Source: Mucilaginibacter sp. (GTDB lineage Bacteria; Bacteroidota; Bacteroidia; Sphingobacteriales; Sphingobacteriaceae). From it: a stretch of DNA of 35,303 nucleotides. This document shows positions 26,433 to 31,716 of this stretch, in pieces. Position 1 is the stretch's first letter, and every line of letters begins with the position of its first letter. The position numbers were made by a program, and so were the translations under genes. Below the pieces are notes generated by a model that was not told the origin of the DNA, searched no databases, and worked only from the letters and a program-made list of their open reading frames with translations. The stretch is from NCBI GenBank assembly GCA_016763755.1, contig JAESTD010000141.1:1-35303 (forward strand), written 5' to 3'.

Positions 26433-27548
26433 ATGAAAATAGAAACCATTGCCATACACGCCGGTAACCATGTTGACCCACACACTAAAGCTGTTGTGCA
26501 GCCAATTATTATGGCCACTACATTTGAACGTGATACCGATGGTGGATATGCATCAGGTTACCAATATAGTCGCTCCTCAAACCCGAACCGCGAGGCATTG
26601 GAAAAAGTATTAGCCCAACTGGAGAATGGTGTTGAAGCAGCGGCCTTTTCATCTGGCAATGCAGCGGGTATGTCTGTTTTTCAATCATTGCTACCGGGTA
26701 CACACGTAATTGCACCGGACGATATGTATCATGGTTTGCGTAACCAGGCAAAGCAGTTGTTTGCAGGAATACTGGAGTTTGATTTTATCGATGTCAATGA
26801 TGAAGCATTGCTCCGTGCACATGTCAAACCCAATACCGGCATTATCTGGGTAGAGACACCATCTAACCCGCTGTTGAAAATTACCGATATAAAAAAGGTA
26901 GTTTCCATAGCCCGCGAGCATAATGTTAAGGTGGTTTGTGATAATACATTTGCTACCCCGGTATGCCAGCAACCACTATCGCTTGGTGCAGATCTGGTGA
27001 TGCATTCATCAACAAAATACTTCGGCGGCCACAGCGATCTAATGGGCGGCGCACTCATAACCGCAAAAAAAAATGATTGGTGGGAAAAGATCCGTGCGGT
27101 ACAAACCATGGGCGGCGCAGTGCCTTCTCCTATGGATTGCTACTACCTTGTGCGCAGCATAAAAACGCTGCCGTATCGCGTAAAAGGGCACGTACATAAT
27201 GCGCAGCTTTTGGCCAACTTCTTAGAAAATCATCCGGCCGTTGAACAGGTGATGTATCCGGGATCAGATTCGCATCCGCAACGCGAGACAGTAAAAGAGC
27301 AAATGATATTGCAGGGCGCAATGATGTCGTTCACGCTTAAAGGTGGCGAAGCAGAAGCAAGAAAAGTGGTAAATACCTTAAAAATATTTACGCAAGCCAC
27401 CAGTTTGGGCGGCGTTGAAAGTTTGATAGAGCACCGCGCATCTGTTGAAGGGCCGGATACCAAAACGCCGTTTAACTTATTAAGGGTATCAGTGGGCTTA
27501 GAGCATATAGATGACCTGATAGCTGATATGGAGCAGGCAATGGCATAA
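26433..27548 (+). CDS. metB: Cys/Met-metabolism PLP enzyme, cystathionine gamma-synthase/lyase type
   Basis: 'YQYSRSSNPNREALEKVLAQLENG', 'VETPSNPLLKITDI', PLP-Lys motif 'MHSSTKYFGGHSDLMGG', 'RVSVGLEHIDDLIADMEQA'. Confidence 0.85.
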   Translation: MKIETIAIHAGNHVDPHTKAVVQPIIMATTFERDTDGGYASGYQYSRSSNPNREALEKVLAQLENGVEAAAFSSGNAAGMSVFQSLLPGTHVIAPDDMYHGLRNQAKQLFAGILEFDFIDVNDEALLRAHVKPNTGIIWVETPSNPLLKITDIKKVVSIAREHNVKVVCDNTFATPVCQQPLSLGADLVMHSSTKYFGGHSDLMGGALITAKKNDWWEKIRAVQTMGGAVPSPMDCYYLVRSIKTLPYRVKGHVHNAQLLANFLENHPAVEQVMYPGSDSHPQRETVKEQMILQGAMMSFTLKGGEAEARKVVNTLKIFTQATSLGGVESLIEHRASVEGPDTKTPFNLLRVSVGLEHIDDLIADMEQAMA

Positions 27549-27595
27549 ACCGTATACGCTATTTACCGTAAAATGATAATTATTTAAGAATTTTA

Positions 27596-27628
27596 TTTGG
27601 AAGATACTTCCCCATTGCCCTATATTTG
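27596..27628 (+). promoter_or_regulatory. Bacteroidota promoter TTTG-N21-TATATTTG driving the met leader
   Basis: TTTG 27596-27599 and TATATTTG 27621-27628, about 50 bp before the riboswitch. Confidence 0.6.
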
Positions 27629-27680
27629 AAACAATATTTGGTAGCAATACCGTGATCAATTTTCCCTCACACGGATTTTG

Positions 27681-27791
27681 ATTTATAAAGAAGCGGCGAG
27701 AGATCAGGCTCTGAGAACCGCTGGCAACCCTGCAAGGTGCAGAAGGTGCCAATTCCTGTCCCGGAGAATAGGTTACCCGGGGGATATAAAT
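27681..27791 (+). ncRNA. SAM riboswitch of the SAM-I clan (SAM-I or SAM-I/IV variant)
   Basis: Core GGCAACC-CTGCAAGGTGCAG-AAGGTGCCAATTCC. P1 ATTTATA (27681-27687)/TATAAAT (27785-27791), P2 AGCGG/CCGCT, P3 CTGC/GCAG, CCCGG/CCGGG helix. Upstream of the metY-like gene. Confidence 0.88.
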
Positions 27792-27799
27792 TAATAGTC

Positions 27800-27913
27800 A
27801 TGAAAAGTCTGATTTATTTAGCCCAACAAAACACATCGCAAGCCCAATCGGGTACCCTTACTGTATACAACCCATTTAACGGCTGTATTTGTATGTGTTG
27901 CTGCTGCTGTTGA
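27800..27913 (+). CDS. Candidate Cys-rich leader peptide, 37 aa (MKSLIYLAQQNTSQAQSGTLTVYNPFNGCICMCCCCC)
   Basis: ATG 8 nt after riboswitch P1; 7 Cys in the last 9 codons (TGT ATT TGT ATG TGT TGC TGC TGC TGT TGA). Below the size cutoff of the supplied ORF track. Confidence 0.65.
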   Translation: MKSLIYLAQQNTSQAQSGTLTVYNPFNGCICMCCCCC

Positions 27914-27916
27914 TGC

Positions 27917-29343
<1,427 letters not shown>

Positions 29344-29425: not shown

Positions 29426-30481
29426 ATGAGTACACAAACCTTTACTTATACAGGAACTTTCGAACTTGAATCGGGCCGTAAACTACAGGGTATTGAAATA
29501 GGTTACAATACTTACGGCACCCTCAACAAAAACCGGGATAATGTAGTGTGGGTATGCCATGCCCTCACTGCTAATTCCGATGTTTTTGATTGGTGGAAAG
29601 GCCTTTTCGGCCCGGAAGACCACTTTAATCCTGATGAACATTTTATTATATGTGCCAACGTTCTGGGGTCGCCATATGGCACTGTCAATCCTTTAAGCAC
29701 GAACCCGGCTACAGGGCAGCCCTATTTCCTGGCTTTTCCGGATTACACCATCAGGGATATTGTAAAGGCACATCAGTTACTTGCCAATCATTTAGGGATC
29801 GATAAAATTGAAATATTATTAGGTGGTTCTTTAGGCGGCCAGCAAGCATTAGAATGGAGCATCATCGAGCAGGATCGTATCAAAAATTTGATATTGATAG
29901 CAACCAACGCCAATCACTCACCTTGGGGCATTGCTTTTAACGAATCGCAACGTTTGGCCATCAGTGCCGACCGTACTTTCCAGGCTGGCAGTATCGATGG
30001 TGGCGCCAAAGGTTTAAAAGCAGCAAGAAGCATTGCGCTCCTATCATACCGTAATTACAAAACTTACGGCATTACCCAGCAAGAAGACAGTGACGAAACA
30101 CCGGAGACCTATAAAGCGGTAAGTTATCAAAACTATCAGGGACAAAAACTGGTTAACCGTTTTAATGCTTATAGTTACTGGTACCTCTCAAAAGCAATGG
30201 ATTCGCACAATGTAGGCCGCGGTCGTGGTAGTGTGGATAAGGCTTTAGGATTGGTAAAAGCGCGCACCTTGGTTATCGGCATAAAATCTGACGTGTTGTT
30301 CCCTATCGAGGAGCAACAGTATCTGTTCAGGCATATACCTAAATCGGCATTCGCCGAGTTAGACTCGTTTTATGGTCACGATGGTTTCCTGATAGAAACC
30401 GAAGACCTTACAAAGGTTATCACATCCTTCCTGAAAACGGATGTAAAGGGAAAAATTATTGAATTACAAAAAATAGCTTAA
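29426..30481 (+). CDS. metX: Homoserine O-acetyltransferase
   Basis: 'NANVLGSPYGTVNP'-type motif (CANVLGSPYGTVNPLS), GGSLGGQQALEW, 'YGHDGFLIE'. Confidence 0.95.
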   Translation: MSTQTFTYTGTFELESGRKLQGIEIGYNTYGTLNKNRDNVVWVCHALTANSDVFDWWKGLFGPEDHFNPDEHFIICANVLGSPYGTVNPLSTNPATGQPYFLAFPDYTIRDIVKAHQLLANHLGIDKIEILLGGSLGGQQALEWSIIEQDRIKNLILIATNANHSPWGIAFNESQRLAISADRTFQAGSIDGGAKGLKAARSIALLSYRNYKTYGITQQEDSDETPETYKAVSYQNYQGQKLVNRFNAYSYWYLSKAMDSHNVGRGRGSVDKALGLVKARTLVIGIKSDVLFPIEEQQYLFRHIPKSAFAELDSFYGHDGFLIETEDLTKVITSFLKTDVKGKIIELQKIA

Positions 30482-31716
30482 TGAGCAAGAAACTTACCAT
30501 TGGCCTCTTCGGCTTCGGCGTTGTTGGCCAGGGATTGTACGATATTATCAAAACAAAGAACCTTAATCTGGAGATCGTAAAGATCGCTATCAAAAATCCT
30601 GAAAAAGACCGCTCCCTACCAAAAGAGTTGTTCACTACCAACAGGGATGAAATACTCAACAACCCCGAAATCAACACGGTTGTTGAATTGATAAATGATA
30701 CTGAAGCCGCGTTCGAAATTGTATCACGTGCTTTAAGTTCAGGCAAAAATGTGGTATCAGCGAGCAAGAAAATGATCGCTACCTATCTAAGTGAACTGAT
30801 CGAATTGCAACACAAGCATGGAACATCATTATTATATGAAGGTTCAGTTTGTGGCAGTATCCCAATCATCCGTAACCTGGAAGAATATTACGATAATGAA
30901 TTACTGCACTCTATCAGCGGTATCTTTAACGGATCATCAAATTACATTCTCTCAAAAGGATTTATAGAGGGACTGGACTATGCATCGGCCCTTAAACAAG
31001 CACAAGACCTTGGCTTTGCCGAAACCGACCCAACTATGGATGTTGGTGGCTACGACGCAAAATATAAACTCATCATTGCGGCATCACATGCTTATGGCGT
31101 GGTTATCGATCCTAAAGATGTATTGAATGTTGGTATTCAGAATCTATCAGCCAAAGACCTGCAGTACGCACGCGAAAAGAACCTGAAGATAAAACTGGTG
31201 CCGGTGGCTAAAGAGTTGGACGACCGCCACGTAACATTATTTGTATTACCCAAGTTTGTTACCGAGAGCGAATTTCTTTACAATGTGGAGTACGAGTACA
31301 ACGGCGTAACCGTACAAGCTGCATTTGCAGATCAGCAATTCTTTTTCGGTAAAGGGGCAGGTGGCCATCCCACCGGCTCTGCAGTATTGTCTGATATTGC
31401 GGCGCTACGCTATAATTATGCCTACGAATACAAAAAGGCTAAAGCTGATAATAACCGACTGCAATTCACTAACAACGTAGACATCAACGTTTACTTGCGC
31501 TATGAGGATGAATCATTAGTTGAGGCATTAGCGTTTAAACACATCCACGAGCGATTCTATTCGGGCAGTTATAAATTTGTTATCGGTAAGATCAATCTGC
31601 AAAAGCTGATCGATAATCAACAGCAAATAGCTGATACCGGTGCATTTGTTGCTTTCGCCGATCAGCTCTCAGGCGTTACTTTGGCCGAGAGTAAATTGCA
31701 AGCGGCCGAAGCCTAA
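30481..31716 (+). CDS. hom: Homoserine dehydrogenase
   Basis: 'IGLFGFGVVGQGLYDII', 'VVSASKKMIATY', 'GSVCGSIPIIRNLEEYYDNELLHSISGIFNGSSNYIL', 'GFAETDPTMDVGGYDAKYKL'. Starts on the last base of the metX stop. Confidence 0.95.
   Translation: MSKKLTIGLFGFGVVGQGLYDIIKTKNLNLEIVKIAIKNPEKDRSLPKELFTTNRDEILNNPEINTVVELINDTEAAFEIVSRALSSGKNVVSASKKMIATYLSELIELQHKHGTSLLYEGSVCGSIPIIRNLEEYYDNELLHSISGIFNGSSNYILSKGFIEGLDYASALKQAQDLGFAETDPTMDVGGYDAKYKLIIAASHAYGVVIDPKDVLNVGIQNLSAKDLQYAREKNLKIKLVPVAKELDDRHVTLFVLPKFVTESEFLYNVEYEYNGVTVQAAFADQQFFFGKGAGGHPTGSAVLSDIAALRYNYAYEYKKAKADNNRLQFTNNVDINVYLRYEDESLVEALAFKHIHERFYSGSYKFVIGKINLQKLIDNQQQIADTGAFVAFADQLSGVTLAESKLQAAEA

Follow-up and report, generated by a model that had tools for sequence, protein, structure and literature searches.

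In the classical attenuators of the trp and his operons, a run of regulatory codons is located shortly 5' of alternative RNA folds. Leaders with runs of cysteine codons are found upstream of cys operons in Mycobacterium and Propionibacterium acnes, and upstream of cbs in Bifidobacterium longum; for the mycobacterial cys leaders, Rho-dependent termination has been proposed (Seliverstov et al. 2005, PMC1262725). According to the papers that cite the original work, the polycysteine leaderless small ORFs (sORFs) of mycobacteria respond to Cys (Canestrari et al. 2020, Mol Microbiol 114:93-108; cited in PMC13236596 and PMC9094748). In Rhodobacterales, tandem Cys codons of the uORFC-8-2 motif precede cysS, and ribosome-mediated attenuation was inferred (PMC8632094). 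For Flavobacterium psychrophilum, one study mentions leader-peptide attenuation ahead of amino-acid operons (PMC9723704). No Cys leader has been reported in Bacteroidota, and none behind a riboswitch, in the literature that we covered, from which subscription journals are mostly absent, making the novelty provisional; an account of sulfur control by leader peptides in Bacteroidota was not found there either.

The locus described here is contained in a stretch of 35,303 nucleotides (the window) from Mucilaginibacter sp. (contig JAESTD010000141.1, assembly GCA_016763755.1). On the plus strand, it consists of a plausible promoter, a SAM-I aptamer, an upstream ORF (uORF), 116 untranslated nucleotides and the genes metY-metX-hom. 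The promoter-like site (27597..27628), read by eye, has TTG at 27597-27599 and, after 21 nt, TATATTTG at 27621-27628, and was compared with TTG/TAnnTTTG, the Bacteroidota promoter consensus; a sigma-70-like match coincides with the site, such matches being no more frequent than in shuffled sequences. The SAM-I (S-box) riboswitch aptamer (27680..27792) belongs to Rfam family RF00162 (75.9 bits, the gathering score being 44.4; E 2.7e-16). The uORF (27800..27913) starts with ATG at 27800, comprises 37 codons and terminates with TGA at 27911-27913. Seven of the nine final residues of its translation, MKSLIYLAQQNTSQAQSGTLTVYNPFNGCICMCCCCC, are Cys, and this tail, CICMCCCCC (27884..27910), contains the proposed sensing codons. 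The first operon gene, metY (28030..29343), encodes an O-acetylhomoserine/O-acetylserine sulfhydrylase (TIGR01326, 692 bits, above cut-off) and is followed by metX for a homoserine O-acetyltransferase-like protein (29426..30481; TIGR01392, 355 bits, below the model cut-off) and hom for homoserine dehydrogenase (30481..31716; NF004976, 319 bits, above cut-off). The product of the gene 5' of the leader (26433-27548) falls into the cystathionine gamma-synthase/lyase superfamily, none of the models shown reaching its own cut-off. The preliminary description of this DNA had proposed the Cys-rich 37-codon ORF, a SAM riboswitch 5' of it, the metY-metX-hom order and an ORF-to-metY distance of about 115 bp; the ORF agrees in sequence and coordinates, the RF00162 match and the NCBIfam models bear out the riboswitch and the genes, and the measured gap is 116 nt. 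We think it probable that the uORF encodes a leader peptide sensing the supply of Cys (and Met) codons by ribosome-mediated attenuation, behind a SAM riboswitch. Sequence comparison makes it very likely that the operon thus has its own cysteine gauge, a kind of device for which all earlier descriptions come from other bacterial phyla.

Like the Cys leaders of mycobacteria and other Actinobacteria, the Mucilaginibacter uORF has a run of Cys codons at its stop, precedes sulfur or cysteine genes and comes without an intrinsic terminator. Unlike the mycobacterial sORFs, it occurs in another phylum, behind a riboswitch and some 165 nt past a plausible start site, contains Met in its tail, is followed by conserved post-stop hairpins and heads a methionine operon; the likeness is one of arrangement. 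Because the SAM-I aptamer separates the promoter from the ORF, the uORF is not a member of the leaderless sORFs, although it shares their Cys run at the stop, and is at most similar to them in its working. The uORFC-8-2 motif also has Cys codons in a leader ORF, but just two, which are placed inside a terminator-forming structure, in front of a different gene, in a different phylum and without a riboswitch. With the trp and his attenuators, the leader shares a run of putative regulatory codons, here shortly before folds that may be alternative, but it has a SAM-I aptamer in front, and no intrinsic terminator or 3:4 stem was found in it. The aptamer precedes methionine genes, as is known for SAM-I (RF00162), but a Cys-tailed uORF directly behind it stands where a recognizable expression platform for metY would be expected. 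In common with amino-acid-sensing leader peptides, the uORF is short and located in the 5' leader of a biosynthetic operon related to the amino acid, and its cluster of codons for the regulated amino acid is kept while the rest drifts. Provisionally, the new part is the arrangement of SAM and Cys sensing in series, polycysteine leaders as such being known from other phyla.

Conservation of the tail in close relatives had been set beforehand as the test on which the sensing interpretation could fail. Genomes of the genus were sampled via metY, present in 40 of the 41, without querying the tail, so that the sample is unbiased; because these genomes share ancestry, the counts below show conservation and not independent events. 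In each of the 40 leaders, SAM-I lies upstream and the uORF, 28-40 codons long, ends in a cluster of Cys: the frame, the position after the riboswitch and the cluster are kept, and the peptide body is not. The test thus did not refute the interpretation. At least four Cys among the last 10 codons of an ATG ORF were found in 38 of the 40, versus 19 of 12,000 dinucleotide shuffles (0.16%) and none of the 40 reverse strands. Among 65 leaders compared, the stop of the Cys tail is always in frame with the first ATG 3' of the aptamer, which usually lies 9 nt past the TATAAA of the aptamer. The uORF is real and is conserved beyond what chance would give. Across the 40 genus uORFs, Cys accounts for 56% of the last ten residues versus 1.0% of the rest of the peptide, and Met for 12.3% versus 0.6%. 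The bodies vary widely, and the tails include CICMCCCC, CMCMCCC, CCCMCC, ACCCCR and CCCCCC. The enrichment of Met in the tail suggests a leader responsive to Met as well as to Cys; alternatively, there is possibly an RNA-level reason for the ATG of the tail. The hexamer ATGTGT is retained in 35 of the 40 tails, and the first two Cys codons after Met show a strong preference for TGT, then TGC. Natural weakened variants also exist: two Mucilaginibacter leaders (L267 and L268), both matched by our leader model, have kept the ORF with just 2-3 Cys in the tail (MRRCC, MRSCC).

Two predicted hairpins, P1 and P2, follow the stop codon. P1 (27921..27955), which begins 7 nt past the uORF stop in the window, pairs CACGT (27921-27925) with ACGTG (27951-27955) and has an inner helix of TTTTTC (27930-27935) and GAAAAA (27944-27949), whereas P2 (27968..27981) pairs GGATAG (27968-27973) with CTATCC (27976-27981). 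Both recur across Mucilaginibacter leaders, and P2 is formed in relatives by different sequences, CCGGTT/AACCGG or CTGGTAAA/TTTACCAG. Mean folding z-scores are -1.8 for P1, -1.7 for P2 and -2.5 for both together; the window's own 161 nt, folded alone, are unexceptional (z -1.1). On a plain MAFFT alignment P2 was misaligned, and RNAalifold recovered P1 alone of the two hairpins; the structure was therefore set by hand and counted. In this structure, 97.8% of cells of the P1 outer helix pair and changes on both sides are seen in P2; overall, 85% of cells pair versus 35-66% for slid versions. Its covariation score, which relatedness inflates and which involves an imperfect alignment of P2, was reached by none of 500 shuffles. 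P1 and P2 are thus predicted hairpins supported by covariation in Mucilaginibacter. Beyond the genus, matches to the leader model (R1) lean largely on the tail itself and many are short, so that the evidence for the P1/P2 module is confined to Mucilaginibacter. A tentative alternative fold is a predicted duplex in which ATGTGT (27893..27898) of the tail takes GCACGT (27920-27925), on the 5' side of P1, as its partner, and the choice between this duplex and P1 resembles the 1:2 versus 2:3 switch of classical attenuators. No consistent third fold, and no consistent 3:4 partner for the 3' side of P1, was found among the species compared. The idea that the 3' side of P1 sequesters the metY start was rejected, the pairing partners differing from species to species, as was an intrinsic terminator after the uORF, there being 0 terminator-like sites in 27540-28100. 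Leader peptides working through Rho or through translation need no such ribosome-controlled terminator.

In the mechanism that we propose, the uORF is translated and its terminal Cys (and Met) codons would gauge charged tRNA-Cys (and tRNA-Met). Upon shortage of these tRNAs, the ribosome would slow down in the tail, and its position relative to P1 would set the RNA fold between the uORF and metY; the altered fold would then raise expression of metY-metX-hom. A stalled ribosome acting as an activator is favoured because of geometry and logic, given that SAM should repress methionine genes. Bacteroidota rely little on Shine-Dalgarno pairing. Since the aptamer ends 7 nt before the uORF, SAM bound to it would probably hinder initiation at the nearby start codon, and if uORF translation is needed for expression, the SAM and Cys/Met inputs agree. 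High SAM would result in no uORF translation and low operon expression, whereas low SAM with scarce Cys/Met would lead to stalling and high expression, full expression needing both. As output step, our first guess is termination by Rho within the 116 nt ahead of metY, the route suggested by Seliverstov et al. for mycobacterial cys leaders; a translational effect is the other candidate. That scarcity of Cys should induce a methionine operon is plausible but not self-evident. Tentatively, and at somewhat less than even chances, we propose a two-input RNA gate in which the SAM-bound S-box blocks uORF initiation and Cys/Met scarcity activates the operon only when the uORF is translated. In such a gate, the riboswitch would act on the sensing leader peptide and not directly on the gene, and the gate would belong to a broader sulfur regulon of Bacteroidota with polycysteine leaders in control. 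Four points go beyond the first reading of this locus: the enrichment of Met in the tail, the two post-stop hairpins, the likely coupling to the riboswitch and the spread to other genes.

Cys-tailed leaders recur in other Bacteroidota, in front of met operons with SAM-I and in front of other sulfur genes. A scan of GTDB genomes with the pattern CMCCCC-stop yielded at least 120 stretches; the pattern is biased and many matches lie inside unrelated genes. Among these, at least 34 have a Cys-tailed ORF ahead of metY and at least seven more ahead of an OsmC-like gene (L054, L059, L082, L084, L085, L102 and L111); in L054 the leader heads osmC-metY-metX-hom. Cys-tailed leaders were also found ahead of metX. 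SAM-I was confirmed with Rfam in eight stretches (L050, L054, L058, L084, L108, L114, L131 and L146). Without SAM-I in the leader, Cys tails precede cysH-cysD-cysN-cobA (L065) and cobA...cysI (L113), as well as SusC loci with an adjoining sulfatase (L092, L133). A search for cysH by family, with no tail pattern imposed, revealed leaders with CCCCCC or CCCCCCC in family f58; most sampled cysH genes, including that of the window's genome, have no Cys-tailed leader immediately in front. As negative controls, most other SAM-I sites in the genus, for example those before cysteine-desulfurase-like genes, have no Cys tail, and neither do the SAM-I leaders of a phylum-wide sample, in which many precede metY. 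The window's own genome contains two further Cys-tailed leaders, both before SusC-type genes: on contig C150, SAM-I is followed by MKTAFTQPVKSLSITALLACRQMQGMCCCCC and the SusC-type gene, and on C320 the leader ends with PMCACTCCCCC. The C150 locus (L315) and those of three further genomes (L317, L318 and L319) have the order SAM-I, Cys-tailed uORF, SusC-like gene and, as annotated by eye, SusD-like lipoprotein gene. This second conserved arrangement in Mucilaginibacter suggests that import of a sulfur-bearing nutrient is under the same control.

The spread of the tails bears on alternatives to codon sensing. One, already raised in the preliminary description, is that the tail acts as a peptide, either as a nascent chain or as a released thiol/metal ligand (copper, zinc, redox), and not via tRNA-Cys. 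A cluster of seven thiols could serve as a metal site, nascent-chain copper sensors rich in Cys (CutF-like) are known, Bacteroidota included (PMC9973294), and redox genes such as OsmC and AhpC/TSA are among the neighbours. However, CxxC-type spacing is not kept in tails spanning CCCMCC, ACCCCR and CCCCCC, a signal peptide is not seen in the peptides, and the genes behind are mostly for sulfur assimilation and sulfate-ester use, not for metals. The presence of the same tails before sulfate-assimilation and sulfatase/SusC loci fits Cys sensing and counts against a metal-binding peptide, leaving the peptide-ligand explanation unlikely. It is improbable, too, that the uORF is translated but senses nothing, merely keeping ribosomes on the leader or feeding reinitiation while control of metY is left to the SAM riboswitch. 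Through reinitiation, leader genes are reported to enhance translation of the genes behind them (PMC4833913), but reinitiation has no need of Cys and Met at the tail, which is the sole conserved part of the peptide; the 116-nt gap is long for it, and other sulfur genes have Cys tails in leaders that lack SAM-I. Conservation of ATGTGT with its P1 partner, together with the TGT-then-TGC preference, would be expected if the conserved feature were an RNA element, a G/U-rich TGY repeat that pairs with the hairpins behind it, and the frame were incidental. This we hold to be quite improbable: each of 65 leaders has retained the frame, its start position and its openness, Cys is kept in tails of other codon order, and the Cys tails of other families have unrelated downstream RNA. 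A chance reading of an intergenic region, conceivable given that short ORFs abound and that TGY repeats have arisen by chance at other places in the window's genome, is contradicted by the genus-wide conservation and the shuffle tests and has a negligible probability. If the uORF is indeed a sensor of Cys/Met codon supply, Cys-codon attenuation extends to Bacteroidota, a metabolite riboswitch and an amino-acid-sensing leader peptide work in series on one mRNA, and met, cys and sulfatase/SusC loci are concrete targets.

Three minor observations concern the other leaders. In a Rickettsiales MAG (L076:350-600), an ORF ending with ACCCMCCCC is located 67 nt before the siroheme synthase gene cysG; it is possibly a Cys leader outside Bacteroidota, or the contig is misbinned. 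Three loci (L092:1945-2045, L078 and L314, the last being C320 of the window's genome) have in common a conserved stretch of some 90 nt, which lies 3' of the Cys-tailed uORF and 5' of the SusC-type gene. When aligned, the three contain stem-like halves, ACCGGC..GCCGGT and GGATGACAG..GTAACGCCAATCA..TCATCC; the stretch has no Rfam match even at E 1 and may possibly be an unreported structured RNA. Finally, seven leaders without SAM-I (L043, L051, L056, L092, L133, L123 and L151) have in common a TATAG/TTAGTAGA-like A+T-rich motif 5' of the uORF, which is perhaps the binding site of a sulfur regulator.
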